A DNA stretch of 64,000 nucleotides from Nitrospirales bacterium (lineage in GTDB: Bacteria; Nitrospirota; Nitrospiria; Nitrospirales; UBA8639): contig JAJDBM010000070.1 in the NCBI GenBank assembly GCA_029261355.1, positions 124,001 through 188,000 of the forward strand, read 5' to 3'. How positions within the stretch are numbered: position 1 is the stretch's first letter; the number at the start of each line of letters is the position of its first letter. Both the position numbers and the translations under genes were made by a program. Below are positions 1,500 through 64,000 of the stretch, piece after piece. A model generated the notes under the pieces. The model saw only the letters and a list, made by a program, of their open reading frames with translations, made no database searches and was not told where the DNA came from.

Positions 1500-1678
1500 G
1501 TCTCGTTATGGTATCAACTGATTGATTCTTGATTGTCGAATTGGCGATTTCATCAATATCACATGTCTCGCGCGACAAAAATCCATCAGGGGCAGATGCT
1601 CTTGAATCGAACGGTTGTTAGTGAGCCTGGGATATCCACTCACGTTTTTCAGATGAATGGTTTGGATTTGGTCTATGC

Positions 1679-2745: not shown

Positions 2746-2904
2746 ATGCTTGATTCAATAGGCCGACAATTGCTCGCGGACCTTTCTGCCATAGGAGTTC
2801 GTCTCCTCATGCCAGTGAGTACACCCATTTGGCAGGTTCACTATGTGAAAACCTCACGCTTCATAGGCAAAAGGATAATGCCAGAATGGGGGTGGAGACT
2901 ATGA
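2746..2904 (+). CDS. Possible 52-residue leader protein coupled to the giant kinase
   Basis: An ATG at 2746 lies six bases after a GAGGAG Shine-Dalgarno sequence. The frame runs to a TGA that overlaps the kinase start in an ATGA junction (2901-2904), the arrangement typical of translational coupling. The peptide (MLDSIGRQLLADLSAIG and on) resembles no family I know. Evidence for expression is the ribosome-binding site and the overlap only. It may be a coupling leader, or a chance frame upstream of the kinase's own site GGTGGAG. Confidence 0.3.
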   Translation: MLDSIGRQLLADLSAIGVRLLMPVSTPIWQVHYVKTSRFIGKRIMPEWGWRL

Positions 2905-8245: not shown

Positions 8246-9471
8246 CACAACAACCATTGCCAAAAATTCTTTTGGTTGATGATAGACCAAACAACTTGCT
8301 TGCACTGAAGGATATTCTAGAGGATATTGGGGCGGATTTATTATTGGCCTATTCCGGGAATGAAGCGCTGACCTTGGTGACGCAGCACGAGTTGGCTTTG
8401 GTCTTGCTGGATGTGCAGATGCCAGGGATGGATGGGATTGAAGTGGCGACTCTCATGCGTCAAGTTGATACGACCAAGCATATTCCGATCATCTTTGTCA
8501 CCGCCTACGGACACAGTGCTGAGATGGCATTCAAAGGCTATGAAGTGGGAGCCGTCGATTATCTTCACAAGCCCATTGCCTCAGAAGTATTGCGAAGCAA
8601 AGTACAGGTGTTTCTCGAATTATATCTCCAGAAGTATGTCCTTAAACAGGCTTTGAGCGATTTAGAAGGCAGTCAAGCGGATTTAAAGCAACGCAGTGAC
8701 GAATTAGAACGCAGTCATGCCGATCTGAAGCGGCGCAGTGAGGAGTTAGGACGGAGTAATGCAGATCTCAAGGCGTTTGCGTCCGTGGCCTCTCATGAAC
8801 TGCAGGAGCCATTAAGGAAGATTCAAATTTTTGGAGATTATGTTAAACGTGAATCATTTACCCAGATGAGTGAGAAAGGGCAAGAGTACCTTGAGCGTAT
8901 GCAGAAGTCGTCTCTGCGTATGCAGTCATTGATTAAGAACATTCTTTCGTTATCCCGCATTAACACGCAGGGTGATCCATTTGAATCCGTCAATCTCAAT
9001 AGGGTGATGACCGACATTGTGGATAATGTTGGGGGTGGTCTGGATGAGGGGCAGGTACGGATTGAGGTGGGAGACGTTCCGATAATTGAGGCGGATCCCA
9101 TTCAAATGCAGCAACTATTTCAAAACCTGATCGGCAATGCCATTAAATTCAAGCATGATGACCGCCCACTTGTGATTCGTGTGACCATAACGCAGGAATG
9201 TTCACCTGATGGGCTTTGTCAGATCGTGGTTGAAGATAATGGGATTGGATTCTCTCCAGAGCACCACGAGCGTATTTTTGGAATGTTTAAACGTCTTCAT
9301 GGAAATAAGGTTTATGATGGAACGGGTATTGGGCTTGCCCTGTGCCAGAAAATAGTTGAGCGCCATGGAGGCACGATCTCTGCGACCGGGCAAGATGGGG
9401 AGGGTGCGACATTTGTCCTTAGATTGCCAATTCATCAGACAGGCTCTGTTCCTGCCGTTCCGATGCTTTAG
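8242..9471 (+). CDS. Receiver-histidine kinase hybrid (REC-HisKA-HATPase)
   Basis: 409 residues. A receiver domain (about 8-125, phospho-Asp57 in LLDVQM, conserved Lys110 in HKP) comes first. It is joined by a charged linker made of 14-residue repeats (about 140-178) to a kinase core with the acceptor His185 in SHELQEPLRK, a phytochrome-type H-box. HATPase motifs follow (NLIGNAIKF, DNGIGF, GTGIGLALCQK). There is no membrane segment, so it acts in the cytoplasm and could take phosphate from the giant upstream kinase and pass it on. The start overlaps the end of cheR by four bases. No DNA-binding output domain is encoded in the operon, so the final target lies elsewhere. Confidence 0.92.
   Translation: MTQQPLPKILLVDDRPNNLLALKDILEDIGADLLLAYSGNEALTLVTQHELALVLLDVQMPGMDGIEVATLMRQVDTTKHIPIIFVTAYGHSAEMAFKGYEVGAVDYLHKPIASEVLRSKVQVFLELYLQKYVLKQALSDLEGSQADLKQRSDELERSHADLKRRSEELGRSNADLKAFASVASHELQEPLRKIQIFGDYVKRESFTQMSEKGQEYLERMQKSSLRMQSLIKNILSLSRINTQGDPFESVNLNRVMTDIVDNVGGGLDEGQVRIEVGDVPIIEADPIQMQQLFQNLIGNAIKFKHDDRPLVIRVTITQECSPDGLCQIVVEDNGIGFSPEHHERIFGMFKRLHGNKVYDGTGIGLALCQKIVERHGGTISATGQDGEGATFVLRLPIHQTGSVPAVPML
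8664..8775 (+). repeat. 42-bp imperfect tandem repeat inside the kinase linker
   Basis: The DNA encoding the linker contains two full and one partial copy of a 42-base unit. The copies read, in protein, SQADLKQRSDELER, SHADLKRRSEELGR and SNADLK. The period is 14 residues, i.e. two heptads, as expected for a coiled-coil signalling helix. Repeat number may vary between strains. Confidence 0.75.
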
Positions 9472-9825
9472 CTTTTCCCTGATTTATATCATTGAGTGAA
9501 CCGTGTGGTGTATTTTACGAGTAGGCTGAAGTGTCGTCTCCATCTTTGACCATTGTTATCCTGAACTCTCCCTATATTTCCGACAACGCCTGAGACCCTC
9601 ATTTCAAAATCCAAGCACTGGATGTCTCTCTCTGACAGAATATAGAGGACGGGCTTGAAGGGCATCTTGTGTTCGCTATGTGGATTTTTTGAATCAACGG
9701 ACCACGCATGGAAGCCTCCATTTTTAGGCCCGGGCACAGAGTTTTCTGGAGTGCTGGGCTTGATGGATGAGAGCCGAAATGGGTTCGTAGCATTTACCGA
9801 TTTAACGAACCGATAAGGAGGATGT
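9472..9825. other. Intergenic region, no gene recognised
   Basis: About 350 bases between the signalling operon and the two small coupled genes. Frames on both strands are open in places, including a minus-strand frame at 9489-9878, but none has a family match or a ribosome-binding site. The segment just before 9815 carries a direct repeat of ACCGAT. Confidence 0.4.
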
Positions 9826-9996
9826 ATGTCTATTGTCAGACTCGTATTTGTGACCGATGGCGAAAACGATAAAATCATGACCAGTAACGGCGATGAGGTC
9901 GACGTGGGGGGGGCTGGCGTGGTTGGGATGAGTCGAGATGTGGGCGGGAAGCATATTACCGTACAGGCCCATTACCCTACACAGAAAAGGGAATGA
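9826..9996 (+). CDS. Small 56-residue protein, unknown
   Basis: An ATG at 9826 follows a very strong Shine-Dalgarno sequence (AAGGAGG at 9815-9821, four bases away). The 56-residue product starts MSIVRLVFVTDGENDKI and is short, polar and beta-strand-like with a Gly-Val-rich centre. It ends in TGA within an ATGA overlap with the next gene, so the two are translationally coupled. I do not recognise the family. The compact two-gene arrangement, with a coiled-coil membrane peptide second, is reminiscent of small phage or prophage modules, but that is an inference. Confidence 0.6.
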   Translation: MSIVRLVFVTDGENDKIMTSNGDEVDVGGAGVVGMSRDVGGKHITVQAHYPTQKRE

Positions 9997-10226
9997 CAAT
10001 GGAAGAACCGTCAGGATTTGAGCAGGTGACACGCGCCCGCGTTGATGGGATGTGTGACGATATCAGACATATACGACAGGACATGGACGCCTTTAGTAAG
10101 GATCTACGAGAAATCATTCATGTCCATGGCAATCGTTTACCGAACTGGGGCGCGACTATTTTTGCTGGAATGTGTACTACAATGGGGGCAATGGCGATGT
10201 GGATAATTAGTCATGTAGCGCATTAA
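9993..10226 (+). CDS. Small membrane protein with coiled coil, XhlA-like layout
   Basis: 77 residues. An amphipathic, heptad-like helix (about 5-50, with repeated D/R/I spacing such as ICDDIRHIRQDMDAF-type content) leads into a C-terminal membrane helix (about 52-74: GATIFAGMCTTMGAMAMWII). This is the layout of haemolysin XhlA-like and other small phage membrane proteins, though sequence identity cannot be claimed. The start overlaps the preceding 56-residue gene in ATGA, so the pair is expressed together. A phage-derived or mobile origin is plausible because the next few kilobases are repeat-rich and end at a recombinase beside a tRNA. Confidence 0.55.
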   Translation: MTMEEPSGFEQVTRARVDGMCDDIRHIRQDMDAFSKDLREIIHVHGNRLPNWGATIFAGMCTTMGAMAMWIISHVAH

Positions 10227-10315
10227 GGGGGCGACGCAGGATTCGGGAATTATCCTACGCTAAGCTCCAGGTAATGGCCTTAGATCGCGGCATTGCCTGG
10301 GTTTTATCTTACGAA

Positions 10316-10427
10316 GCTGGTCGCTGTCCCAGTTGATCTATAGTCTAAATAGGACAACAATGGGGCCTGTAAAACAAGGCGTTGCGGGCCACCTTTTCGG
10401 AGAGGTTCAATTGGGACAGCGACCAGC
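10316..10427. mobile_element. 112-bp inverted-repeat element, MITE-like
   Basis: Two 21-bp arms (10316-10336 and 10407-10427) are inverted copies of each other with one mismatch; the first 16 bases, gctggtcgctgtccca, are perfect. The 70-base core has no gene. The size and terminal inverted repeats fit a miniature non-autonomous transposable element or a REP-type element. I see no clear target-site duplication flanking it. Confidence 0.6.
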
Positions 10428-10462
10428 CATCTCTTGCCGGGTAATCGAACGCCTCATGTTTC

Positions 10463-10531
10463 TCGATAGCGGACGTTCTTGAGCGCCCCGCAGACGGCCT
10501 CTACCTGTCTGCAGTCGGCCAAGAGCGGTCA
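10463..10531. repeat. Repeat R1, copy a, of the PEP-CTERM cassette
   Basis: A 69-bp segment that recurs at 11899-11967 with only two differences. It contains the internal palindrome-like stretch gcagacggcctctacctgtc. It lies about 110 bp upstream of repeat R2 in both cassette copies. Confidence 0.85.
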
Positions 10532-10642
10532 CCCCACAGGTATCCGATCGTCATCATGCCTTGACGCAGGGCTGCCCCCAAGACACGGCGTCCAGCATAT
10601 CTCCCTTTCGTAGCAAGACCTGACTCTCAGTTCACTCAAACC

Positions 10643-10684
10643 GACAAATACCCCTTATTTGGGGTTATACAAGCAGGCTGACAA
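10643..10684 (+). promoter_or_regulatory. Repeat R2, copy a: palindromic upstream element
   Basis: A 42-bp element shared with 12076-12117 (37 of 42 identical). Its core, taccccttatttggggtta, is an imperfect palindrome. The TACCCCT half-site fits the NarL/LuxR-type heptamer TACYYMT. It lies upstream of both PEP-CTERM genes and is probably an operator or activator site; the DNA-binding protein is not in the window. Confidence 0.5.
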
Positions 10685-10860
10685 ACCGGTATGCTTCCAC
10701 CGACTTTCGATGGTTACAATGGACAACATCCAATAAACACAAGAGTCGCATCCTACCCAACCACGGACGGTTCGGGAGAATCTTATCACCAGCACACGGA
10801 CAGGACCGGACGTCCTTTCTCAGCAGCGTTCATATCGAAACAAGATAATGAGGATTGATC

Positions 10861-11046
10861 ATGTTACAATCAACGGGAAGAGGATGGAACCCCATGACCC
10901 ACATAAGGGGTTTGGGTTTAACCGCTATGATGCTGCCGCACTTAGCCTTCGGGTCACCGATCAATACATCCGAGGGCGGGGGCGACTACGGTAACTCCAA
11001 TGGCGCAAGGACCACCTGCGGTCAAGCGTTGGCCATCACGAGATGA
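10861..11046 (+). CDS. Small secreted-like ORF, 61 residues
   Basis: The frame begins at an ATG preceded by tgaggattg, a weak Shine-Dalgarno sequence. It encodes a possible signal sequence around residues 12-31 (MTHIRGLGLTAMMLPHLAFG), followed by a Gly/Ser/Asn-rich tail. It lies between the R2 regulatory element and the first PEP-CTERM gene and has no counterpart in the second cassette. It may be a small exported peptide or the 5' remnant of a longer exported protein. Not recognised; expression unproven. Confidence 0.35.
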   Translation: MLQSTGRGWNPMTHIRGLGLTAMMLPHLAFGSPINTSEGGGDYGNSNGARTTCGQALAITR

Positions 11047-11105
11047 GGTTAAACATCGGAGCACCACACTCTCTTCAAACTTTAGTCAATTATTCAGGAG
11101 GCATC

Positions 11106-11633
11106 ATGAACCGTCTACGACGCCACAACATAACGATCCCCCTCGCCGCCGTCGTGTTGGGATGGTTTCTGTTTATCCCTTCGCCGAGTTGGGCCGCCCC
11201 CGCCCTGCTTGGGCCCGGAGATTACAGGTTCGATTCGGGAGATTTATTCGGAGGGACTTTTACGATTGACGGTTCCGGCGAGTTCAGTGAGTGGAACATC
11301 ACGTTTCCCGCGACAGAGTTTTCCCCACTCAGGAAGTTTCAATCTCCCACGCCCGGTATCATCACACTGGGATTGTCATTCGAAAATGTGTGGCTCCTTA
11401 GCGGTTTGGATATTAAGTACGAAATTGACACAAGAGTAGTATTTCCCGGGCAGCCAAGGACGTATAAATACTTGATTCAGTCTTTCATAGACCCGTTCCC
11501 CGCGGTAGGCGGGGTTGGGAACGTCACCGCAGTCCCAGCACCATCGAGTTTCCTCTTGTCGGCAACCGGCCTCCTAGGCCTCGCCGGCTATCGGTGGCAC
11601 CATCGGCGACATGAGCGCGCCCAAGTCGGGTAA
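11106..11633 (+). CDS. PEP-CTERM-type secreted protein, first copy
   Basis: The start is the ATG six bases after AGGAGG; 63 bases of open frame upstream are not used. The 175-residue product has a signal peptide (residues 1 to about 30, ending in SWA), a beta-rich middle, and a C-terminal sorting signal: VPAPSS, a hydrophobic stretch with GLLGLAGYRW, and a basic tail (HHRRHER). That tripartite tail is the PEP-CTERM signal, with VPAP replacing VPEP, which an exosortase cleaves at the inner membrane for surface or biofilm-matrix delivery. No exosortase is encoded in the window. It shares N- and C-terminal ends with the gene at 12226, while the middle differs. Confidence 0.8.
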   Translation: MNRLRRHNITIPLAAVVLGWFLFIPSPSWAAPALLGPGDYRFDSGDLFGGTFTIDGSGEFSEWNITFPATEFSPLRKFQSPTPGIITLGLSFENVWLLSGLDIKYEIDTRVVFPGQPRTYKYLIQSFIDPFPAVGGVGNVTAVPAPSSFLLSATGLLGLAGYRWHHRRHERAQVG

Positions 11634-11644
11634 CCCGCCTTCGG

Positions 11645-11845
11645 CCCATCGCCACCACCGGGACACGTACACACCAAGCGCCGAAGATTGTGATGGTCTT
11701 CGGCGTTCTTGCTCATAAAGCCGGCGCACCCGTGTCACACTCATCATAACTCATTCAAACCCTCCTCTCCACACGTAGCTCACCAGTCAATAGTCTTTGG
11801 ACTAAAAGATCCGCTTGGCAACCAGTTTCCAACTTGAATGCAATC
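11645..11845. repeat. Repeat R3, copy a, of the PEP-CTERM cassette
   Basis: About 200 bp directly downstream of the first PEP-CTERM gene that recur, highly similar, at 12831-13030 downstream of the second. The block includes a hairpin terminator. Together with R1 and R2 it shows that a whole gene cassette, not just the coding region, was duplicated. Confidence 0.88.
11679..11710 (+). terminator. Hairpin terminator after first PEP-CTERM gene
   Basis: A perfect 9-bp stem (cgccgaaga at 11679-11687 with tcttcggcg at 11697-11705) has a 9-base loop and is followed by ttctt. The T-run is weak, so it may be inefficient. It is conserved in the second cassette. Confidence 0.6.
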
Positions 11846-11898
11846 TTGTACTTCACATATTGAACTGACCTAGTTGTGACCCGCATGTCCGCTGTGGG

Positions 11899-11967
11899 TC
11901 GATAGCGGACGTTCTTGAGCGTCCCGCAGACGGCCTCTACCTGTCTGCAGTCGGCCAAAAGCGGTCA
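11899..11967. repeat. Repeat R1, copy b, of the PEP-CTERM cassette
   Basis: Second copy of the 69-bp repeat described at 10463, with 67 of 69 positions identical. It marks the left edge of the second cassette unit. Confidence 0.85.
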
Positions 11968-12075
11968 TTGAATTGCACCAAAAAAATGAAATCCCCCTAG
12001 GGCGTTAGGACCACCTCATGTGCGATATGGATTTTTCAGGAACGAAAACTCACCTATGCCGGTTTAACCCAACCA

Positions 12076-12117
12076 GACAAATACCCCTTATTAGGGGCTA
12101 TACTAGCAGCCGGACAA
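12076..12117 (+). promoter_or_regulatory. Repeat R2, copy b: palindromic upstream element
   Basis: Second copy of the R2 element. Here the palindrome reads taccccttattaggggcta, so the two half-sites TACCCCT and AGGGGCTA are closer to perfect symmetry than in copy a. It lies about 110 bp before the second PEP-CTERM gene. Confidence 0.5.
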
Positions 12118-12225
12118 TCAGCTACGATCCCGCAATATTTCGCATGTTTTAAATAGAAATCGATTTCATCCAAAGCATTATAACCCAACCAGCGGATATG
12201 CGACTGAAAGGCAAGAATAAACCCC

Positions 12226-12819
12226 ATGACTTACACAAAATCAACATTCATTCCACTTGCGGCTGTCGTGTTTCTCGTCTGTTCCAGCGTCCAGGCCCAT
12301 GCCGCGTTAATTTACAACATATCGCAATCCGCATTTAACGGCCCCAGTTCCGTATCCGGAACTATTGAGACAGATGGGACCATAGGGGCCATTAATGCCG
12401 TGAATGTACTGAGCTGGGCGTTCACCCTCGATGACGGGGTAGGGACCGTAGTTAGTTTGTCCAGCACAAACGGCACGCTGGACCTCGCGGGGAGGACATC
12501 CACCGGATTCTTCGCGACTCAGACCGAGGTCACGTTCCCGTTCTCAGGCAACCACCTCACGTCATTCAATAGTGGTGTGAAGTACTTGGCGTTTGATGGC
12601 AGTCTCAGTGAGTCGCGCGTAATAAGACCGGACTTTACTGGCATGAATTGGAATGTCGGGGGAAGAAAGTGGATCAAGAGGATGAGCGGCTCTCAGGTGG
12701 TCGGCACAGCAAGCACGGTACCGGCACCAACCTCGATGCTCTTGATGGGTTCCGGCCTCCTCGGCCTAGCTGGCTATCGGTGGTCGCAGCGTCGACGTGA
12801 GGGGACTCAACTCGAGTAG
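12226..12819 (+). CDS. PEP-CTERM-type secreted protein, second copy
   Basis: The 197-residue protein has a signal peptide (1 to about 26, ending AHA), a beta-rich body with many Ser/Thr/Gly, and a C-terminal VPAPTS motif, a hydrophobic helix with GLLGLAGYRW and a basic SQRRRE tail. It therefore carries the same exosortase-type sorting signal as the gene at 11106. The N-terminal IPLAAVV and the last 30 residues are nearly shared between the two, but the central domains differ markedly. This pattern suggests duplication followed by rapid divergence, or replacement, of the displayed domain. The Shine-Dalgarno sequence (gaaaggcaag) is further from the start than usual. Function of the body unknown. 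Confidence 0.8.
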   Translation: MTYTKSTFIPLAAVVFLVCSSVQAHAALIYNISQSAFNGPSSVSGTIETDGTIGAINAVNVLSWAFTLDDGVGTVVSLSSTNGTLDLAGRTSTGFFATQTEVTFPFSGNHLTSFNSGVKYLAFDGSLSESRVIRPDFTGMNWNVGGRKWIKRMSGSQVVGTASTVPAPTSMLLMGSGLLGLAGYRWSQRRREGTQLE

Positions 12820-12830
12820 TCCGCCTGCCG

Positions 12831-13030
12831 CCCATCGCCACCACCGGGACACGTAGACCCCAAGTGCCGAAGATCGTGATGGTCTTCGGCGTTCTTGCTC
12901 ATGAAGCTGGCGTATCCGTGTCATCCCCATCATAACTCATTCGAACCCTCCTCTCCACACGTAGCTCACCAGTCAAAGTCTTTGGACTAAAAGATCAGCT
13001 TGGTAACCAGTTTCCAACTTGCATGCAATC
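12831..13030. repeat. Repeat R3, copy b, of the PEP-CTERM cassette
   Basis: Second copy of the 200-bp downstream block. The matching continues beyond it: tgtccgctgtgggtcga, found at 11887-11903, recurs at 13130-13146 after an extra stretch of about 75 bases. The copy includes the conserved hairpin. Confidence 0.88.
12866..12895 (+). terminator. Hairpin terminator after second PEP-CTERM gene
   Basis: An 8-bp stem (gccgaaga at 12866-12873 with tcttcggc at 12883-12890) around a 9-base loop, followed by gttctt. The loop differs from the first copy by one base while the stem is conserved. Confidence 0.6.
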
Positions 13031-13318
13031 ATTCACTTCATATGAAGAAGGCAGGTTGTGACAACATCGTAAGAGATAACGGCATCACGCACCGTTGCTA
13101 AAATTGAACTTGACCGATTGGGACCTGAATGTCCGCTGTGGGTCGACTTGCGACCAATCAGTTCTATTGCTTGCAGCGTCCGCTTTGGCTGTAAAAACCC
13201 TTAGCGTACGATAATTCCCTAATCCTCAATCGTCCCCATTAAAAATATGGAGGAAGGCAATAGCTTTATTGTAGCGACCGGATACGAGGGGAGACGAACC
13301 AGTGTGTCAGCAAAATTT

Positions 13319-13918
13319 TTAAGCGTTGAGCCTAAAAATTCCTTCTGCTCTTAACTCTTTGAATAGATTTTCTTTTTGTTGTTTCAATTCATAATGACGA
13401 CTGCGCAGTTCAGGGGCATAATCTATTAATGCTTGCAGGCAAGCATTTGCCATATTTCGATCATGTTCGTTCGCAGAATTTCCGGCAATGTATTCGAATT
13501 TTTCATTTTTCTCTAGCAAATAATTATTCATTATTACGCAATCTTTGAGGGTTTTAGCTATTAAGTACGAGGTAATAATGGACTTCCTTAGTGACTCATT
13601 GACAACCTTCCCCAACAAGGTAGCATTGGAATGGTAGACTGTAAAATAGTCCTGTGAAACTGGCCAATACATGTCGCAAGGCTTATCAACTTCCAATTGC
13701 TGTAAATATAAACCTAAGGTTGCTTCATAGGCAGTCCATACGGACTCTACTTCATCATGTATGGCCAGCAAGTAATTTTTTACTAATTGTTCTTCATTTT
13801 CCTTGTTCTTTTTTTTCTCTAGTTTGAATGTAAGCAAAGTACCAAAGAATACGAATATTCCTCCGATAAACGCACCACCAATGCCAACCGATAAAGTAAT
13901 TATTTGGTCGTCTGTCAT
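13319..13918 (-). CDS. Single-pass membrane protein with long cytoplasmic helical domain, unknown
   Basis: The 199-residue protein begins with a membrane helix rich in Gly and Phe (about residues 5-30: GIGGAFIGGIFVFFGTLL). A Lys/Glu-rich stretch follows (KLEKKKNKENEEQ), then a mostly helical domain of about 150 residues. I do not recognise the family. Its coding sequence is visibly more AT-rich than the housekeeping genes in the window and uses AT-ending codons, a sign of recent transfer. It is alone on its strand inside the island between the PEP-CTERM cassettes and the recombinase. Similar one-helix proteins are common cargo of mobile elements; no function is assigned. Confidence 0.65.
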   Translation of the reverse strand: MTDDQIITLSVGIGGAFIGGIFVFFGTLLTFKLEKKKNKENEEQLVKNYLLAIHDEVESVWTAYEATLGLYLQQLEVDKPCDMYWPVSQDYFTVYHSNATLLGKVVNESLRKSIITSYLIAKTLKDCVIMNNYLLEKNEKFEYIAGNSANEHDRNMANACLQALIDYAPELRSRHYELKQQKENLFKELRAEGIFRLNA

Positions 13919-14541
13919 TTCATCTAATATTTGATGAGTGCCGATGTTCGGGGAAATATTGTTCCCAATTCAACAAATCCTTGATCTTGCGGTAAGCATC
14001 AGGGTTAGTGGTTCACCTCGTTAATACAACGTGAATCGACTGACCCTCTGCAACCGTTGCTTTAGTGTGCGCCCATCCACCTATATTCCCGACATAGGGT
14101 TAGAAGTATTTGGTTGAGGCCACTAGCAGGGGTTACTTCAAGTACAAAGCGTGGATACTTGAGACGAACCTATCCTAGAAAGACTTCACAGCGAAAGCGT
14201 TCTATCCACCGTTTCCAGCGTGTTCCGGGTTATCATCATTGTCAAGAGCGGCATGGCAATACGGGCACAATTTGCCGTCCTTTATTGTTAGTTATTTCAC
14301 AATGTAATAGCTTATTGCTGATTGTATGATGACTAAAGAGCTTATAGTTTTGAGCTTATTTGTCAAGAATCGAGCTCCAAAAAAGAAAACTCGCGCTTGC
14401 TTCTGCTCAAAGGCGGCTTTGAACTATTCATACCTGGACTTCAGGAGTATCACGTGGTGCCTTGTCCTTTCTTTTTCACGCAATGCGCGCAGATAGCTTG
14501 AAGGGGGGCAAGGGCAGCTGAATAGATACTAGTGGAGAGTG
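13919..14541. other. Intergenic island DNA, no gene recognised
   Basis: About 620 bases between two minus-strand membrane-protein genes. A plus-strand frame at 14114-14329 is open but Arg/His/Cys-rich and has no ribosome-binding site; I do not accept it. There may be decayed mobile-element DNA here, but nothing can be named. Confidence 0.4.
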
Positions 14542-15081
14542 CTAGAGAAAATGTGCAGCGAATCTTTGAAACTTCGAAAGAGGGTGCAGCTCATTCTCTG
14601 GGTATCCCATCGCTTGCATGAGCTCATTATGGCAGACTATATCTAGGGTTCGCCTTACTGGGGGCTTCGACTTTTCCAATTCTAAACGGGTCACTTCCCA
14701 GGTTGCAAAACTCTCTGGTGTTGGGGTGATCGTTGCCACTATTTGTTTTTCCAAATCAATAAAGTCTTTTGCCAGATCATTATGGTCACGACTTTGCCGA
14801 CTCGTTCCGACAAAGAGATCAACTGTCGACAACCCCGCTACGATCACGCCTGCGGTCATAGTCCAAGTCGGTCCCCATTCACCTAGCACAGAAGCTATAG
14901 TCGCCGTTCCAAATAGGAGAGCAGACACATTCGTGATCATATGCCAACGATCAAAGAAACGAACTGGCCGCATGTGGTAGCGTACAGAACGACGGACGCC
15001 AAACAGTAGATCATGACGCTGTTGGCTGAGAGTATCCTCAGTCGTCGCTAGGTTTTGGTCTGGGTGGTTTGAGCGTGTCAC
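14542..15081 (-). CDS. Two-helix membrane protein, SLATT-like layout
   Basis: The 179-residue protein has a basic-aromatic N-terminal region (RRSVRYHMRPVRFFDRWH), two adjacent membrane helices (about 50-66 and 73-92, split by a short WGPTW turn), then a charged helix (SRQSRDHNDLAKDFIDLEKQI) and a helical tail. This layout, with Arg/His/Phe before the first helix and D/L/E-rich helix after the second, resembles SLATT-type two-TM effector modules and related island proteins. SLATT domains occur in conflict systems with nucleotide-signalling enzymes; no such enzyme is next to it. The resemblance is by architecture only. Confidence 0.55.
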   Translation of the reverse strand: MTRSNHPDQNLATTEDTLSQQRHDLLFGVRRSVRYHMRPVRFFDRWHMITNVSALLFGTATIASVLGEWGPTWTMTAGVIVAGLSTVDLFVGTSRQSRDHNDLAKDFIDLEKQIVATITPTPESFATWEVTRLELEKSKPPVRRTLDIVCHNELMQAMGYPENELHPLSKFQRFAAHFL

Positions 15082-15093
15082 GTATGTTTCTCT

Positions 15094-15954
15094 TTGGCGG
15101 TGGTGGGGGAAACAAATCCGACAACCCTAACCCCCTGGGTTTTGAGATGTGTGGAGTTTTTTTCCCGCGATACCTTTCTTAGAGAGTGTTTTGTGTTGAT
15201 GCGTATCCTGAATTTTGCGGTTGATTATGACTTACTCGATAAGAATCGGTTGAAGGTGATTACGATTGAGAAGGGTATCAGACGGGAGAGGGTAATCAGT
15301 GAGGATGAATATTCGGCCTTGCAAGTGGCGGCATCTCTTCAGTTGTGGAGGTTGATGTTGCTGGTGCTAAATACAGGTTTACGGGAATCCGTATTACTGT
15401 CAGTAGCATTGAACTGGATCAGGGCGTATGAGGACGGGTGGTGGTTGAGCCTTCCGAAAGCTCGAACGACGTTTAAGGCACATGCCCCACGAATTCCATT
15501 GAATGCAGCAGCCTTGGCGGCACTCGTTCCGTAGAGTGAGCCGATGGTGAGTGGAAGAATATTTAGTACGTGGAATGATCGAAGCTCAGTGACATCGGCA
15601 TGGAGAAGGGCCATTCAGAAAACGAGCATTCACGATTTGAAATTTCACGATTTGCGACATTCATTTGTGACGCGGCTACAGAATTTTGGTGTTGATTATG
15701 AGGTGCGCCAATGGCTAGCAGACCACAAAATGAAAGGATCAACTCAGGGGTATTCTCATGGTGGTCCAGGATGGGATGCGAAGCTACGGGACGCAGTCGA
15801 AAAACTGAATGTGTCCTATGGTCTGTCCTATGGAGATTCTATACCTGAGGGTCGAGGGGAAGGTGAGGTCACAAAGGGGTTGAATTTATTGGTGCCGAGG
15901 GACAGAATCGAACTGTCGACACCAGCCTTTTCAGGGCTGTGCTCTGCCAACTGA
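15094..15954 (+). pseudogene. Tyrosine recombinase (phage integrase) interrupted by one in-frame stop
   Basis: A single frame encodes a phage integrase catalytic domain, broken by one TAG at 15532-15534. Before the stop lie part of the core-binding domain (MRILNFAVDYDLLDKNRLK) and the first catalytic Arg in NTGLRES. After it, in the same frame, come HDLRHSF (His-x-x-Arg), a conserved His in LADHK and the nucleophile Tyr in TQGYSH. The N-terminal arm-binding part is missing: the frame opens only after 15072. The reading frame runs on into the antisense of tRNA-Phe, a common sign of integration at a tRNA 3' end. Probably inactive unless the stop is suppressed or is a sequencing error. Confidence 0.85.
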
Positions 15955-15965
15955 GCTACCTCGGC
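15890..15965 (-). tRNA. tRNA-Phe (GAA)
   Basis: The minus strand folds as a standard 76-base tRNA: acceptor GCCGAGG paired with CCTCGGC, D-arm GCTC...GAGC, anticodon stem CAGCC/GGCTG around loop CTGAAAA (anticodon GAA, Phe), T-arm with TTCGATT, discriminator A and an encoded CCA. Its 3' end faces the recombinase remnant, so it is the probable integration site of the island to its left. Confidence 0.95.
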
Positions 15966-16258
15966 ACCTTAGAATATTCAAAGAGTGAGGGGAGGGGCAT
16001 CACGTGCAACAATAAGGTGATAACCGTAGGGCTAGCATCGTGCGCCATTACCTGGCTCTTTGTAGCAATGGGTTACGAAGACTGTCAAGTTATGGGTGAC
16101 TTTGGTTAGGAAATTATCTTGAAAATTATTTGGCCTTGAGTACATTTTCCCCTCAGCGTTGAACAGGTTCAAGAGTTGACTGCTCCAGAAAATCACTTCA
16201 TCAATAGCCTTGATTTTTTTTTGGGGTAAAATGCTCCCTTAATGAGGGCGATTCTTTC

Positions 16259-17143
16259 TCATTCTGCTTCACTCTGAAGTACGGAAGCCATCCAACTTCC
16301 GGCCGGAATAGTAAGAAGAGGACAAGGCACCTTCTTGAGGATTTGTTCAGTATGCCCACCTTGTAATGCATCGAGGAATCCTCGTTTTCCACCGGTTGTC
16401 ATCACGAGCAAGTCAGCGCTATTGACTTTTATTGTGTCTAAAATAACTTTTGTCACGTTCCCTTGTTTGGTGACTTTGGTCCATGTCCATCCTGGAACTG
16501 ATGGGCATCGTAGGGTTGGCATTTGCCCGTCCTCGCCTACGTGGATAATAGTGAACTGACCGGATTTGCAGTGGAGTCGTTGGACTAGGCGGGCGGCAGC
16601 CTGAAGTGCTGGTTGAGCTTGAGGGTCAGACGACACAGGGATGACGATGTGTTTCAATGATACCGATCCATCTTTCTCTGAAACAAATCCGTTTACTCCT
16701 TTTGGTAATAATAGCGTCATAAGTCGTGATTTTCGTGCAACTGGTTTTGCGACTGATTTATGCATCCAATGTATCCATCCTTTACTCTGTTGAGTCGCAA
16801 GGACAAGCAGGTCAGTTGGATGCATTTCTAGCCATTGCAACACGGTTTTTACTGGGTCCGTATGCTTCGCTCGAATTTTGCTGACGTTAATACCTAATGT
16901 TTTGACAGATGACTTGGGGCTGTTTTTGGGTAAGAGCTTCCATTTTTGCAGGGTTTTGCTGACGCCAGGAAACTCTGTCCAATCGATGTTTTGGTCATTG
17001 GCAACATTTAATATCGTCAGTGGGGATTGGGCCATGAGCGCAGCCTTCAGCGCATGTAGGAATGCTGGATGACTGTCTGCACTGAAATCAGAGCAATGTA
17101 CGATATTCTTGATAATTGGTAGGTTCAAACGTGGTTGTCCCAT
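16259..17143 (-). CDS. Tandem universal stress protein (two UspA domains)
   Basis: The 294-residue protein has two UspA folds: residues about 11-147 (starting IKNIVHCSDFSADS) and about 163-283 (starting LKHIVIPVSSDPQ). The second retains a DLLVMTTGGKRG stretch like the ATP-binding GxxG region of Usp proteins. The first is more divergent, with LLVLATQQSKG. Usp proteins bind nucleotides and modulate survival under stress; the ligand here cannot be told. The start is the ATG at 17143; a minus-strand frame at 16201-16392 is a shadow. It lies alone, divergent from proA. Confidence 0.85.
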   Translation of the reverse strand: MGQPRLNLPIIKNIVHCSDFSADSHPAFLHALKAALMAQSPLTILNVANDQNIDWTEFPGVSKTLQKWKLLPKNSPKSSVKTLGINVSKIRAKHTDPVKTVLQWLEMHPTDLLVLATQQSKGWIHWMHKSVAKPVARKSRLMTLLLPKGVNGFVSEKDGSVSLKHIVIPVSSDPQAQPALQAAARLVQRLHCKSGQFTIIHVGEDGQMPTLRCPSVPGWTWTKVTKQGNVTKVILDTIKVNSADLLVMTTGGKRGFLDALQGGHTEQILKKVPCPLLTIPAGSWMASVLQSEAE

Positions 17144-17456
17144 AAGGCCCCTTTCACTAATTTAATGTATAGAGATTTTCTCGTATGGTCATGACTTCCC
17201 ACGCTAGGTTTCTGTCACATTGATTTTCTATCGACAATGTCTGGAGGATGGTACCGTTATTGAGTTCTCCAGGTAAACTGAGAACCTTTACATTGATATT
17301 CTAATAGACTGAATGGTCTTAAGGCTTTGATGTGGAAGCTGAAGATACCTGACGTTGAATCTTCTTCTTTGCTTGACGGTTCTCTCTACCTCACGGTATT
17401 CTCAATTCGCCTTCAATTTATAGAAAAATAACGAGAATCTAAGGACGGCCGAGACT
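17144..17456. other. Divergent intergenic region
   Basis: About 310 AT-rich bases between the stress-protein gene and proA. It must carry both promoters. I see no confident -35/-10 pair and no riboswitch. An AAGGA Shine-Dalgarno sequence precedes proA. Confidence 0.4.
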
Positions 17457-18800
17457 ATGGAAACTAAAGAAGAGCTTGAAGTTCCGGGTGATCAAGACAT
17501 AGACGTTATAGAAGCAGGAGCCCCAGAAGTGGAAGAAGAGGTTCTGAGTAACGAAGATTATGTTGCTGCTCTACTCACGACAGCTCGTACGGCCGCTGGT
17601 CCTTTGAGTATCTTGACGGCTGCGGCGAAAAACCTTGCACTGGAATCCATGGCAGAAGGCCTCGAAGAGGCCTCAGACGCTATTCTTGAGGCCAATGAAG
17701 AAGACTTGTCTGAATTTGGAGATGAACCAGACCGTGCAGCGATGGCTGACCGACTCAAGTTGACTCCGGAACGAATCACTGGCATGGCTAAGCAAATACG
17801 TGAAATCGCTGCATTACGCGATCCTGTTGGTGAGTCGTTAGGGATCTGGCAGCGGCCTAATGGCATGAAGGTTGGGCGTGTGCGTGTGCCGATTGGGGTG
17901 ATTGGTATTGTCTATGAATCTCGCCCCAATGTGACAGCTGATGCTGCAGCGTTATGTTTGAAGTCTGGAAATGTCTGCGTCTTGCGTGGCGGATCGGAGG
18001 CCATTCATTCCAACACCGCTATTGCGAAAGTCTTACATGCCGCCGCTGTGAAGTCAGGAATTCCTGAGGGTGCAATCTCCTTCATTGATAGAACTGATAG
18101 GGATGTGGTGCTGGCTTTACTCAAGAGTGATCGTTATGTGGATTTGATTATTCCTAGGGGTGGTGAGTCATTGATGGAAACGGTGACTGAGAATGCCACC
18201 ATGCCTGTGATTAAACATGATAAGGGAGTCTGTCATATCTATGTCGATTCGGATGCCGATTTGGAACAAGCCCTCAAGGTCTCGGTTAATGCAAAGGTGC
18301 AACGTCCTTCGACGTGCAACACATTAGAATGTTTGCTGGTGCACGAGAAAATTGCCAAAAGCTTTCTCGTGCCTCTTGGGAAGCAACTGGCTGAAGATGG
18401 CGTGGAAATTCGTGGATGTCCTAAGACGTGCGGAATATTGCCAGAAGCTAAGCCTGCAGAAGAAGGTGACTATGGCAAAGAGTTTTTAGCCCTAATTCTC
18501 GCCATCAAGATTGTCAAGGACATGGACCAGGCGATGGAACATATTGAGACGTATGGCTCTAAACATACTGAGTCGATTCTGACGAATGATTATATGCGGA
18601 GTCTTCGCTTTCTTCGACAAGTGGATGCCAGTGCTGTGATGGTGAATGCCTCTACTCGACTGAATGATGGGTATGAGTTTGGTCTTGGCGCAGAAATGGG
18701 GATTAGTACGACGAGACTTCATGCTCGTGGGCCAATGGGTTTGGCCGATTTGACCTGTTCGAAATATGTGGTCTATGGCACGGGGCAAATTCGGGAATAA
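17457..18800 (+). CDS. proA: Gamma-glutamyl phosphate reductase
   Basis: This NADPH-dependent aldehyde-dehydrogenase-type enzyme makes glutamate 5-semialdehyde in proline synthesis. The conserved core is present: VPIGVIGIVYESRPNVT, LRGGSEA, DLIIPRGG, and the catalytic Cys287 in RPSTCN. Length is 447 residues against about 420 in the family. The excess is an acidic N-terminal extension (about residues 1-30, rich in Glu/Asp). The start is the ATG after an AAGGA site. The gene is not beside proB, whose product supplies the substrate. Confidence 0.95.
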   Translation: METKEELEVPGDQDIDVIEAGAPEVEEEVLSNEDYVAALLTTARTAAGPLSILTAAAKNLALESMAEGLEEASDAILEANEEDLSEFGDEPDRAAMADRLKLTPERITGMAKQIREIAALRDPVGESLGIWQRPNGMKVGRVRVPIGVIGIVYESRPNVTADAAALCLKSGNVCVLRGGSEAIHSNTAIAKVLHAAAVKSGIPEGAISFIDRTDRDVVLALLKSDRYVDLIIPRGGESLMETVTENATMPVIKHDKGVCHIYVDSDADLEQALKVSVNAKVQRPSTCNTLECLLVHEKIAKSFLVPLGKQLAEDGVEIRGCPKTCGILPEAKPAEEGDYGKEFLALILAIKIVKDMDQAMEHIETYGSKHTESILTNDYMRSLRFLRQVDASAVMVNASTRLNDGYEFGLGAEMGISTTRLHARGPMGLADLTCSKYVVYGTGQIRE

Positions 18801-57011: not shown

Positions 57012-57263
57012 TCCTCCAATGTTGAAGTCAAAATCTAACGAAAACGCTGATGAATTTTTTTTGATTGAGATCTCGAGAATTTGAACGAAGTCAATATAGT
57101 AAAAGAATAGTGCCGGGCACGTGCAATGTCAAACATTGAACATCCCAAAAAGACCTGAAGTGACGGTTAGTTGTCCTCAGTTTGACCCTCATAATTTTCC
57201 TATGCTAGCGTAGTGATCTACCCTTACTGTTTTGTTTTCAACGGATTAGCATTGGTGTTATGC

Positions 57264-58214
57264 ATGAAATCTGAACCCACTCATACTGCTCGTACGCAGG
57301 TCGTTGGCAATGTCACTCTACGTTTGGCGCCTCCACTTGCCACAAATCAAGAATGGATCGGCAATCGAGAATTATTGCAACAATTACTCGCCTGTTGGCT
57401 GGTAGTGGACCCACGAGACTTCCCCTTATCACCACGGATCATTGGGCAACCAGGCGTCGGTAAAACCACCTTGGCGATGTCTGCCGCGAAAGAACGAAAG
57501 CAAGCCCTCTACATCTTTCAATGCACGGCTGATACACGTCCCGAAGACTTGTTGGTATCACCAGTCATTTCAGAAGGCGGGACGATTTCGTATCAAGCCT
57601 CCCCACTCGTAACCGCCATGTTGACCGGAAGCGTCTGTCTTTTGGATGAAGGCAACCGGATGAATGAAAAGAGTTGGGCCTCGCTGGCCCCGTTGCTTGA
57701 TCATCGCCGAACTGTTGAATCGATCATTGCCGGTATTCAAATTGCGGCCCATGATGACTTCAGATGCTGTGTCACCATGAATGAAGATGCCTCTACCTAT
57801 GAAGTCCCTGATTATATACTCTCTCGACTTCAACCCACGCTCAAAGTTGAATTCCCAGCACGCGATCATGAATTAGCGATCCTGCACTATCATTTGCCGT
57901 TTGCTCCAGCTGAAATTCTAGGACTCACGGTAGACTTCCTACAAAAAGCCCATGAACTCGATTTAGAATTCTCAGTTCGCGATGGCATTCATATGGTGCA
58001 ATATGCACTCAAGCGGCTTGCACAAGATTCTACTCACCCGCTTGGGCAAGATGCCGCTTGGAAGGAAGCGCTGACGAAAGTGCTTGGCCAGGAAGCGTTT
58101 GACCTTGATTCCTTGGCTCGACGCCGGAGTCATGCGATTGGAAATGAAGATACCCCTCGGGGATTGGGAGACTTTTTCTTTGATGAGGGACACCCACTAC
58201 ACCCTGATCAATAG
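57264..58214 (+). CDS. MoxR-like AAA+ ATPase
   Basis: From the ATG at 57264 the protein has 316 residues; a GTG 51 bases upstream would add a hydrophobic piece and is not preferred. Walker A is GQPGVGKTT, Walker B is CLLDEGNR, and the sensor MNEDAS and the ENRM-like region follow in MoxR order. MoxR ATPases remodel partner proteins, usually with VWA-domain partners. No VWA gene is nearby; a 629-residue unrecognised protein follows 137 bases downstream on the same strand. Confidence 0.9.
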
Positions 58215-58351
58215 TAGAGGGTCAGAATCTAATCTTGTCCCTCCTTGTTTCTAATTTCATGTAGAAATAGCCTCTTGTTCGTCTCTTGTCATAACGAGAA
58301 AAAGTTCTTGCACGGGATACGAAATACGAACCACGAGCGACGCTTTAGAAT

Positions 58352-60241
58352 ATGACACCCGATAAACAGGTCACCGACGCCGTGTTTCAACTCTCACCTC
58401 GGATCACGCTTCTGCCAATTCGTCATGCGAGTGGCGATGTGGCACAAGAGGTTCGCGAACATTTGCTGAGAGAGAAAGTTGACTGCATTGCGGTTCCACT
58501 GCCTCCATCAGTAGAAGAACCGGTCGAAGCTGCGATTGCCAACTTACCCCATATCCAGATTGTTCTGATTCCAGAACGCCAAGAATCGACCACGACGTAT
58601 TCCTACATTCCCGTTGATCCATGCCAGCCGATTATTATGGGAATTCGAGTGGCGATGAACGAAGACATTGCTCGTGCGTACATCGATCGAGAAGTTTCAA
58701 TCTATGAGCCATCGACCTATTTCACCGCAGACCCCTATGTCATTAAACATGTTTCCCTTGCGGCCTATGCGACGGCCATGTTGCCTTCGCTTCCTGCCCC
58801 AACCCCTGGCACGCAACGATGGCAACGGATTGCATGGATGGCATTTCGTCTCCACGAACTCGAGTTGTATTATGAGTCCGTCCTCTGTGTGTGCTCGTTA
58901 GAAGATTGGCCTTGGATACGAGCGTCTTATCAGAATCGAGCACCCTATGAATTGCCGGATACGCAGGAGGCACGACCGGAGTCGTTTCGCATTCAATCGG
59001 ATTCGCTGTATTTTGTATTGGGGGAATTACCCTTTGTCACAGAGCTGTATGAAACACGGCGAATAGAGGCTCGAGATGATAGGCATCTGTCCATCAATAG
59101 CATCAAGGAGCTGCTGCTCGAGACTCGAGTGAATTGGCTCCGGACGTGGCAAGATGACAGTGCCCAAGAATCCAATTGGGTCACCCCACAGTTACTTCAG
59201 ATGTTTTTACAGTACGTCAGAAATTTATCCTTACTCAATCATCGTCTCACCCCTGACCTGTACACCTTAGTGCTGGCTGCCAAGCAACTGGCAGGTGATG
59301 AGTTTGCCCTTACATTGCTAGATACGGCAAAGCAATATCGGTTTCAAGATGCCGAGGTGCTTCCTTGGGCGCAGCCTGCGATTTCGGTAGGACTGGGAGA
59401 AGTGCAGTTTCCAGATGGAGTTGTAGCTAAAGCGAGCAATCGTTTAGCGGGTCAACTTTTAGAATGGAAATCGTTGTCATTACGGCCAGCTCCACCGAAG
59501 CGGAAAAAACGAGATTGGGCCTATCAATGGAATCCGTTTGGGCAATGCTCTTGGCCGCCCGAAGATAATAAAATTGAATCATTTACGGCTCATGTCCGGC
59601 AGCAGGCGAAATCACTCTTAGGGGCAGAGCTGGCCAAAGCTGAGAAGTTTACCACCTCAATGCGTGATGGTATTGACCTTCGTGAAACACTTCGGCATTC
59701 GATTACCTCTAGATCACAACACCTTGAAATTTACGTCAAAGACATTCCTCCCGCTCGTGGAACATTGGAAGTCATTGTTTTTCTGTTTGAAACTCCGGCA
59801 GATAGAGAAAAGTTTTCCTGGCAAGCCACGTGGTATGCGGAACATCAAGAAGAGTCAACCCTCTGTTTTTTTGCCACACCGTTTTTAGAAAATATGGTGG
59901 GGCCAGGAATCGGGCAATCGCAGTATGGGGGCACGATGTTTTTGTTCCCACCGCGGCCCATTCCAGATATTTGGACCGATCCTGAGCTTGATTTCACGAG
60001 GAGTCTCGAAGAGCGACTCCTGGCGGGAGCCTGTCGTCATTCGCATGAGCCACATGTGGCACTTGTCTCTCCCATTCCACCCAAAGCCCGATGGCGCCAA
60101 ATTGCCAAACGTTTTGGACGCAAGCTCATTCCCATTCCTCTGAATCGGTTTTCTGGACAAACGATCAATCGACTTCGGCAATTCCATGTATTGAATGGAC
60201 ATGATATTCGCAGTTTCGCATCGCAGTTTATACGTGAGTAG
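58352..60241 (+). CDS. 629-residue protein of unknown function paired with a MoxR ATPase
   Basis: I do not recognise this protein. It has no signal peptide or membrane helix. The first 110 residues (LLPIRHASGDVAQEVREHLL, VDCIAVPLPPSVEE, IQIVLIPERQ) look like a Rossmann-like alpha/beta domain. A helical middle follows, and the C-terminal part (about 380-629) includes a basic linker (PPKRKKRDW) and a mixed domain with SQYGGTMFLFPPRPIPD. By layout it recalls the large partner proteins of MoxR cassettes (for example DUF5682-type), but no motif proves it. Probably acts with the upstream ATPase. Confidence 0.6.
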   Translation: MTPDKQVTDAVFQLSPRITLLPIRHASGDVAQEVREHLLREKVDCIAVPLPPSVEEPVEAAIANLPHIQIVLIPERQESTTTYSYIPVDPCQPIIMGIRVAMNEDIARAYIDREVSIYEPSTYFTADPYVIKHVSLAAYATAMLPSLPAPTPGTQRWQRIAWMAFRLHELELYYESVLCVCSLEDWPWIRASYQNRAPYELPDTQEARPESFRIQSDSLYFVLGELPFVTELYETRRIEARDDRHLSINSIKELLLETRVNWLRTWQDDSAQESNWVTPQLLQMFLQYVRNLSLLNHRLTPDLYTLVLAAKQLAGDEFALTLLDTAKQYRFQDAEVLPWAQPAISVGLGEVQFPDGVVAKASNRLAGQLLEWKSLSLRPAPPKRKKRDWAYQWNPFGQCSWPPEDNKIESFTAHVRQQAKSLLGAELAKAEKFTTSMRDGIDLRETLRHSITSRSQHLEIYVKDIPPARGTLEVIVFLFETPADREKFSWQATWYAEHQEESTLCFFATPFLENMVGPGIGQSQYGGTMFLFPPRPIPDIWTDPELDFTRSLEERLLAGACRHSHEPHVALVSPIPPKARWRQIAKRFGRKLIPIPLNRFSGQTINRLRQFHVLNGHDIRSFASQFIRE

Positions 60242-63109: not shown

Positions 63110-64000
63110 ATGAGCGCACTAAACGGAGAAGTTATTCTTGCAGATCAAGGAGTCGGGGGCCCACTTCAATTACGAGTGTATGGCGATGAGTTTTATGCAC
63201 GTCGAGAAACCCTGGACGGATATACCGTCATCTACGACAGTCAGCAACGCCGCTATTGCTTTGCGATCTTGGCTGCTGGGAGATTTATGTCTTCAGGGAT
63301 TCCTGTCCATAAACCGGCTCCTCGCGACCTTCGAAAACATGTGAAAGAGGATCCCGATGTTCGCAATGAAAAGTTTGGGCAACGTTATGCACGTCTCAGA
63401 CCATCGGAAGAAGATGCGGAGACTGGGCGGACACGAACACTCGGCCCTGACGGTGGATTGCTGACAGGACGGAAACTTCATGATGGCGAGATCTTAGGAC
63501 TCACTGTCATCGTGGATTTTGACGATATCCGTACCAGCATCGCCGCGTCGGACGTTGACGCCATGTTCAACTCTGATCAGTACTCAGAAAATGGGAATAT
63601 CAGTTCAGTGAAGACCTACTTTGAGACGGTGTCATCAGGCAAAATGACCTACACCAATCTTGTGGTTGGTCCCATACGACTCTCGAAGCGGCGGAGCCAT
63701 TACATCAGTAACCTATTCGTCAAAGAAGCCATGGATATTGTGGTGAATGAGCTGAATATTGATCTCAGTCAGTTTGATTCACGAGGGGAAGGGGTCGTGG
63801 ATGCGATTAATTTTCTGTATGCAGGGGAATCTCAATATGATGGCGACCTCTGGCCACACAATCACTTCTTGGATTTAAATTATGGAAGTATGAGGACGCA
63901 TTATTACCAGCTGACAGGCCTGGGTCTTCACAAAGTTGATTTACGTATTGGCACGATCTGTCACGAGAACGGTCATCTTCTTTGCCGCTTTCCGGATATG
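63110..64000 (+). CDS. M6-type metalloprotease (3' truncated by window)
   Basis: The ATG follows AAAGGA by about ten bases and the frame is open to the window end, giving 297 residues so far. GDEFYARRETLDGYTVIYD near residue 26 is typical of the propeptide-like segment of M6 (immune inhibitor A-like) proteases. The zinc motif HENGH lies in ICHENGHLLCRFPD near the end, where the third ligand would follow outside the window. There is no signal peptide, unusual for this family. Proteolytic function is likely but the rest of the protein, including any sorting signal, is unseen. Confidence 0.82.
   Translation, partial: MSALNGEVILADQGVGGPLQLRVYGDEFYARRETLDGYTVIYDSQQRRYCFAILAAGRFMSSGIPVHKPAPRDLRKHVKEDPDVRNEKFGQRYARLRPSEEDAETGRTRTLGPDGGLLTGRKLHDGEILGLTVIVDFDDIRTSIAASDVDAMFNSDQYSENGNISSVKTYFETVSSGKMTYTNLVVGPIRLSKRRSHYISNLFVKEAMDIVVNELNIDLSQFDSRGEGVVDAINFLYAGESQYDGDLWPHNHFLDLNYGSMRTHYYQLTGLGLHKVDLRIGTICHENGHLLCRFPDM

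Follow-up and report, generated by a model that had tools for sequence, protein, structure and literature searches.

With which protein does a MoxR ATPase work where no VWA gene lies beside it? ATPases of this clade normally rely on VWA partners, and the question is raised by a locus in a stretch of 64,000 nucleotides (the window; positions 124,001 to 188,000 of contig JAJDBM010000070.1, assembly GCA_029261355.1) from a Nitrospirales bacterium. A preliminary description, made from the letters of the window, had read the locus as an undescribed two-gene system, with a MoxR-type AAA+ gene (P0001) followed on the same strand by the gene of a large unrecognised protein (P0002) and with no VWA gene present. 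Both open reading frames (ORFs), the ATPase motifs and the null results of family searches agree with this arrangement. We propose that the two proteins are probably, though far from assuredly, an ATPase-adaptor remodelling machine without an adjacent VWA protein. If true, a conserved MoxR pair with a TIKI-fold partner breaks the usual rule of the VWA partner. The features of the locus are as follows.

57264-58214, + strand: P0001, MoxR-clade AAA+ ATPase gene, 316 amino acids counted from ATG
58164..58211, + strand: C-terminal tail of P0001, residues 301-316, with F304-F305-F306 and P314-D315, a candidate docking peptide
58352-60241, + strand: P0002, partner protein gene, 629 amino acids, seen in family alignments A1 and A4 and without a database family
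58373..58951, + strand: predicted TIKI/ChaN/TraB-like domain, P0002 residues 8-200 (VIA-align, BFVD and DUF5682 profile homology)
59084..59341, + strand: helical bundle, P0002 residues 245-330, with a weak AAA lid/histone-fold resemblance (VIA-align Z 6.9 or lower)
59354..60238, + strand: conserved C-terminal half, P0002 residues 335-629, including 430-469, without a recognised fold (conservation, AlphaFold2)

The reading frame of P0001 has a second possible start, a GTG at 57213, upstream of the ATG. The spacer between the genes measures 137 bp, and a simple scan detected neither a terminator-like nor a promoter-like site there; the promoter scan returned six sites against 4.9 expected and is thus uninformative. 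The nearest named relatives are the Nitrospirales metagenome-assembled genomes (MAGs) NPIRA01 and NPIRA02, in which P0002 is 82 and 81% identical. For P0002, alignment A1 comprises all but two (L013 and L015) of the 22 candidate rows, 20 in total, and A4 holds 36 of 49, picked for diversity; the ATPase alignment, A2, holds 18 of 22 (L009, L010, L014 and L018 left out).

Joint retention of the two genes

A pattern scan of one genome per species (84,980 species) recovered 21 loci with P0002 relatives, in records of Nitrospirota, Nitrospinota, Latescibacteria, Gemmatimonadetes, Pirellulaceae and Fibrobacter. The ATPase gene is present in 20 of the 21 loci, and in 19 the ATPase match ends no more than 186 bp upstream of the P0002 relative. 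At L023 three ORFs separate the two genes, and L014 starts at a contig end. Each of the 21 genomes has a single ATPase match (E<=1e-20).

The co-occurrence that the preliminary description asked about was then surveyed within phyla. The Nitrospirota genomes overlap in organism with the pattern-scan loci, so that these samples are not independent. Among 245 Nitrospirota genomes, the P0002 family occurs in 36, the ATPase in 36 and both in 35. No more than 184 bp separate the profile matches in 34 of these 35, and in G007 a gene on the opposite strand intervenes. Two genomes are exceptions. G179 keeps a P0002 remnant (L076 6798-7415) in the same position, between a LysM lipoprotein gene and ligA, and the family ATPase was not found in the genome; in G176 distant P0002 relatives are directly preceded by an ATPase that is itself distant (131 bits). 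Among 199 genomes of Planctomycetota, the phylum of the Pirellulaceae MAG, the P0002 family occurs in 32, the ATPase in 34 and both in 32. Here the genes are linked in 21 of 32 (gap up to 1.4 kb), lie 0.27-4.5 Mb apart by contig coordinates in six (G289, G313, G334, G370, G446, G459) and are split over different contigs in five (G336, G352, G354, G402, G431). Fisher tests for co-occurrence gave 4e-40 (Nitrospirota) and 6e-35 (Planctomycetota), uncorrected for kinship.

A set of 43 pairs was compared, from which the duplicates L029-L032 and L037 had been removed and in which 7 of the 11 unlinked Planctomycetota genomes are represented. Identity ranges over 48-97% for the ATPase and 26-95% for the partner, and the two distance matrices correlate with r 0.94 (0.93 for those 7 unlinked genomes against all, without a control gene). 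Given these identities and the joint retention across phyla, the pairing is far beyond chance. The pair is an old evolutionary unit: nearly every genome surveyed has either both genes or neither, even when they are unlinked.

Two points weigh on the other side. The ATPase occurs without its partner in 2 of the 34 Planctomycetota genomes that carry it (G271, G417), where a re-search with a wider profile at E<=1 found none; in G417 the ATPase sits on a 6.1 Mb contig. Correlated distances, moreover, are expected from shared descent alone. The two genes might be chance neighbours with independent roles, as would fit the 6 to 11 pair-bearing Planctomycetota genomes (of 32) in which their loci are separate. 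Both are still kept when apart, however, and genomes elsewhere generally lack both; because the ATPase accompanies the partner in 32 of 32 Planctomycetota and 35 of 36 Nitrospirota genomes, such a coincidence is hardly credible.

The partner protein

P0002 matched nothing in Pfam, NCBIfam or PADLOC at E values up to 10. AlphaFold2, run on a 20-row alignment, modelled it with a mean predicted local distance difference test score (pLDDT) of 82.6. In a VIA-align search, residues 8-200 of the model matched ChaN (2g5g, Z 8.2), HopBA1 (5t09, 7.7), PMT (2ebf, 6.5), 6a7h (6.4, with residue numbers that fit RRSP) and the EreA-like 3b55 (6.3); these TIKI-type matches (Z 8.2-6.3) have 3.9-5.8 Å with 141-160 residues aligned. 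A ciliate complex IV chain, matched in three entries, scores above them (Z 9.6-10.4), and dynein lid matches to residues 245-375 are interleaved among them. PMC6254334 lists 2g5g, 5t09, 2ebf and 3b55 as members of a single superfamily, TIKI. In a search of viral models (BFVD), a TraB family protein ranks first for P0002 (E 1.9e-3, probability 1.00). Because four matched chains share one superfamily and the BFVD search ranks TraB first, the N-terminal domain is assigned, on the predicted model, to the TIKI/ChaN/TraB fold, as which it models.

This assignment has to be weighed against three points. The TIKI-type Z values only slightly exceed what the tool itself classes as common; from Z 5.3 on, matches to histidine phosphatases and further sandwich folds appear; and Foldseek alone on the PDB gave nothing at E<=0.001, with no TIKI chain among the 50 matches listed.

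The preliminary description had suggested a comparison with DUF5682, which has its E. coli representative in YehM. Profiles of 36 P0002 relatives and 20 DUF5682 proteins (alignment A5, YehM plus 19 of 28 loci) were aligned by hhalign with 97.3% probability (score 101.5; E 2.7e-11 for the one comparison) over P0002 residues 15-317 and the first 328 residues of YehM; decoys (one reversed, 12 column-shuffled) scored at most 23.1. By profile comparison, the first ~300 residues of P0002 are remotely homologous to DUF5682, and the helical bundle at 245-330 lies largely within this homology, which ends at residue 317. The C-terminal half has no significant homology to DUF5682: 37 columns align at E 0.041 with a probability of 1.3%, and there is a faint W..P...E...IE resemblance between the two. 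The DUF5682 model (PF18934), with its 26-bit cut-off over the whole protein, is not reached: P0002 has no match at E<=10, and 3 of the 36 relatives have weak ones (best E 0.0033). The suggested comparison with DUF5682 proved apt for the N-terminal part.

The N-terminal half of DUF5682 proteins (L028 10696-12972; loci L077-L099) is likely itself a TIKI-fold family with conserved His, Glu and His, by homology only. DUF5682, for which we found no paper in the literature searched, would gain a likely fold and a mechanistic frame.

Three residues are invariant in DUF5682, His11, Glu35 and His202, and a reading of the profile alignment, not of a structure, places them at P0002 positions 25, 49 and 185. 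In DUF5682 the mapped His/Glu/His would be catalytic. His25 is found in 31 of the 36 P0002-family members of A4, Glu at 49 in eight and His at 185 in seven, all seven being among the eight. The carriers form a divergent clade (L052-L056, L073-L075), and the remaining 28, among them the P0002 of the window, lack both. The latter has H25, with P49 and D185 at the other mapped sites and I23 where the first Glu would be expected, so that by profile mapping the two His and two Glu of the TIKI superfamily active site are not complete in it. The joint loss of Glu49 and His185 supports both homology to DUF5682 and loss of the old active site. In the clade of the window, the degenerate TIKI domain may serve binding rather than catalysis. 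With one clade carrying the putative Glu and His and another lacking them, the proposed step from enzyme to adaptor is directly testable. A metal site at C91/C399 was also considered and was dropped, C91 being kept in just 31 of 36.

The C-terminal half is the most conserved part of P0002: in A4, 93 columns of residues 8-629 reach at least 0.9 identity, and 58 of them lie within 381-629. Folded alone, residues 335-629 reach a mean pLDDT of 76.6, and nothing in the PDB matches them clearly (Foldseek at best E 8.4e-3, VIA-align at best Z 4.2). An RNase H/Argonaute-like reading of this half was rejected, the SPARTA, uS11 and integrase chains behind it (Foldseek E >=8e-3) being too weak and VIA-align giving no Z above 4.2. 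Residues 430-469 are conserved, yet modelled with pLDDT below 50; given this combination, they might resemble a stretch that orders on binding.

These data bear on a second view of P0002, as an enzyme with a catalytic C-terminal half that is loaded or switched by the ATPase, which would be compatible with an ATPase-adaptor machine. Ten acidic, His or Arg residues (E404, D405, E409, E431, D439, R444, E497, E501, H612, R620) are present in 36 of 36 rows of A4, and the divergent clade retains the TIKI-type Glu and His. No enzyme fold was recognised, however, and the invariant residues might equally be an interface. We regard a catalytic C-terminal half as unlikely, if worth keeping in mind.

The ATPase, known systems and the place of VWA proteins

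P0001 has matches above the cut-off to the Pfam models AAA_5 (E 2.4e-19) and AAA_3 (30.6 bits). Its sequence contains GQPGVGKT at 61, D128-E129, TMN at 171, LSRL at 186 and SVRDG at 237; the first we take to be Walker A, D128-E129 the end of Walker B and TMN sensor-1. K67, T68, D128, E129, N173, R188 and R239 are invariant in all 18 rows of A2. With the AAA_5/AAA_3 domain, the residues of both Walker motifs and those of the sensor and arginine finger in place, P0001 belongs to the MoxR-clade AAA+ ATPases. Among solved sequence relatives, midasin is the best match (E 5.3e-21), followed by CbbQ (1.4e-7) and NorQ (8.4e-6).

In the C-terminal tail, F304, F305, F306, P314 and D315 are invariant in the 18 rows, and residues 281-303 have no invariant column. 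A looser form of the tail pattern occurs in 44 of 46 distinct members of the ATPase family, with linked and unlinked genes alike. Being short and conserved, the FFF...PD tail looks like a natural docking peptide; the loose pattern's absence from two members (L072, L075) speaks against it.

A profile of the P0001 family separates it from other ATPases. Members score at least 386 bits in the Planctomycetota scan (the split G354 gene apart) and above 400 in another comparison of members. The G176 relative reaches 131 bits, the other MoxR genes compared at most 32.5, the 21 YehL-type ATPases of DUF5682 loci at most 17.4, and YehL itself falls below 0. YehL was accordingly rejected as the closest kin of P0001, which is not of the YehL type. 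At the loci surveyed, therefore, either kind of large protein retains an ATPase family of its own. As a separate observation, the unlinked P0002 gene of G289 (L067 6089-9622) lies 0.7 kb from another MoxR-like gene, with 32 bits to the P0001 profile.

A VWA gene was sought by PF00092. The absence noted in the preliminary description is confirmed, as none of the 8 matches in the genome is on the window's contig, and the look for a distant VWA gene that it had proposed thus yields matches on other contigs. An always-adjacent VWA gene in relatives, which would have spoken against the proposed system, was not seen: in 17 other pair-bearing genomes, none of the PF00092 matches listed comes closer to the pair than 10 kb. 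Of those that share a contig with it, the nearest lie ~14 kb (G282) and ~126 kb (G257) from the pair. By this measure the locus does not belong to the MoxR-VWA pairs in its own genome or the 17 others. Among pooled neighbours, VWA_2 is found in 2 of the 87 proteins of pool A7, and no VWA family is among the 25 of 156 listed for A6. A VWA domain hidden in P0002 was also considered and rejected: Pfam gives no VWA match, and D-x-S-x-S, the metal ion-dependent adhesion site (MIDAS) motif, is absent from 34 of 36 family members and has no conserved position. No VWA chain is among the PDB matches listed for P0002, an absence that excludes nothing.

The scope of the survey counts against a system free of adjacent VWA proteins. 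It covered PF00092, the list of matches ending near E 0.004, and not every contig extends for 10 kb to both sides of the pair (that of L023 is 6.7 kb).

A VWA protein encoded elsewhere might instead act as co-chaperone in trans, with P0002 as a third component, like DUF5682 in the E. coli locus yehL-yehM-yehP-yehQ. This locus encodes, by record products and domain search, a MoxR ATPase, a DUF5682 protein, a VWA protein and a SWIM zinc finger, so that a VWA gene follows yehL-yehM. At least one VWA match is present in 16 of the 17 pair genomes, the window's genome has such matches on other contigs, and the pair's own genes can unlink. The idea is weakened by G265, in which PF00092 has no match at E<=0.01 (completeness not stated), and by the lack of any VWA match listed within 10 kb of the pair; in G247 the single match has E 3.9e-7. 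We consider a VWA protein in trans rather improbable.

How, then, does the pair compare with known systems? As in yehLMPQ, a MoxR-clade ATPase gene lies directly upstream of that of a large protein, and the first 300 residues of the large proteins are homologous. Unlike there, the C-terminal half of P0002 is unrelated by profile, P0001 is not YehL-like and no PF00092 match is listed beside the pair. DUF5682 occurs in 25 of the 199 Planctomycetota and none of the 245 Nitrospirota genomes, and both systems are found together in 9 of the 32 pair-bearing Planctomycetota. The nearest single-domain solved relatives of P0001 belong to NorQ-NorD and CbbQ-CbbO. CbbO is the large adaptor of its ATPase. 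NorQ likewise is an ATPase with one large adaptor, according to PMC9976466. In both systems the adaptor carries a VWA domain with MIDAS, whereas the P0002 family has no conserved D-x-S-x-S. Midasin, the best solved match, differs from P0001 in that a MIDAS domain is part of the same single, giant chain (PMC13036017). The modelled fold of residues 8-200 resembles the TIKI superfamily (Tiki, ChaN, EreA-like, TraB, HopBA1, PMT, RRSP), as do His25 and, in the divergent clade, the Glu and the second His; unlike that superfamily, P0002 of the window keeps H25 alone of the mapped residues and adds a large C-terminal half and an ATPase partner.

From these comparisons a working scheme can be drawn. 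P0001 would form a ring like CbbQ and NorQ, and the ring would bind P0002, perhaps via the FFF...PD tail and the conserved, poorly modelled stretch 430-469. P0002 would be the client-binding adaptor, in the position that VWA proteins hold in other MoxR systems. Of the reading in the preliminary description, the two-gene system is supported, while a mechanical replacement of VWA by P0002 and a role in complex assembly or stress response would go beyond these data. In NorQD, as PMC9976466 and PMC13036017 describe it, the ATPase ring turns the partner that holds the client, and because of this analogy the P0001 ring may act on its clients through P0002. It tells against the scheme that the ring, the contact between P0001 and P0002, the adaptor role and the client are all steps that we infer. 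As a compact two-protein system, the pair would be a test of MoxR ring function without a MIDAS domain.

MoxR ATPases with a large partner are known already. New with respect to the literature searched is the combination of a VWA-free system, a TIKI-derived partner with an unrecognised C-terminal domain and an ATPase family of its own; that search, in which preprints and most subscription journals fell outside, found nothing on the pair, including a VWA-free MoxR ATPase with a TIKI-derived partner. A wider reading would see a MoxR-clade motor without VWA, with an enzyme-turned-adaptor TIKI-fold partner and a new C-terminal domain across phyla, and with the DUF5682 systems as a sister branch within a whole TIKI-based MoxR branch. 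We put this forward tentatively, as falling a little short of an even chance.

An anti-phage or conflict function, akin to the MoxR-vWA ternary systems (VMAP), would place the pair differently. Those systems (PMC7159879) also combine a MoxR ATPase with a large partner whose mechanism is not established, and differ in their vWA component, for which no PF00092 match is listed near the pair in the genomes tested. The 36 members match 13 Pfam families between them at E<=0.5, and no VMAP name is among these, the presence of the VMAP-C model in the library being unchecked. An adjacent pair, annotated as AAA family ATPase and hypothetical protein, lies on the Neochlamydia plasmid pS13 (Parachlamydiaceae bacterium; L112 7093-9806) near a recombinase gene and less than 4 kb from a gene for an AbiEi-type antitoxin. 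Relatives occur on two IMG/VR contigs, of which one also carries what by eye is an ATPase ORF, and the expanded cluster of G176 joins three paralogues with phosphatase-like and HD-like genes by eye. P0002 has no PADLOC match, however, and the best for the ATPase is TRIP13 (E 0.0089); 50,697 phage records contain no match, and the Nitrospirota loci remain beside housekeeping genes. A conflict function is accordingly improbable.

Neighbouring genes and further observations

In the window the pair is flanked by a LysM-type lipoprotein gene and ligA (named by eye; ligA via Pfam on the relative L008), and at Nitrospirota loci it stands beside trp genes, the LysM lipoprotein gene and ligA, mostly eye-named. 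An operon with trp genes or ligA was rejected, other phyla having different neighbours. Pools A6 and A7 hold 188 of 200 neighbour ORFs; the other 12 were omitted, without a fixed rule, because they were redundant or long or looked antisense. When neighbouring ORFs were clustered, no additional family tied to the pair turned up repeatedly in different phyla. TPR/kinase-type ORFs from 12 loci in two phyla fell into one cluster and response-regulator ORFs recur as well; judged by eye, both were taken as promiscuous.

The expanded cluster of G176 (L109, G176:C57:197000-216900, 1592-17859) has its ATPase at 6782-7771 and three ~700-aa P0002 paralogues at 7939-10035, 10172-12268 and 15760-17859, with PP2C-like, HD-like and 830-aa genes by eye. 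The divergent relatives on IMG/VR contigs, whose viral origin is the IMG/VR classification only, are L110 368-3260 (with the ATPase ORF, by eye) and L111 125-1957 (upstream part cut). QueG-type genes lie near some pairs, possibly by coincidence: queG is annotated on the Neochlamydia plasmid (L112 15541-16461), a QueG-looking Fe-S gene stands between the pair members at L075 (8091-8951, by eye), and QueG_DUF1730 is found in 2 of the 87 proteins of pool A7. At 63110-64000 of the window, a gene start that runs past the window's edge encodes HENGH, which is H-E-x-x-H-like, and by eye has the look of a secreted metalloprotease.

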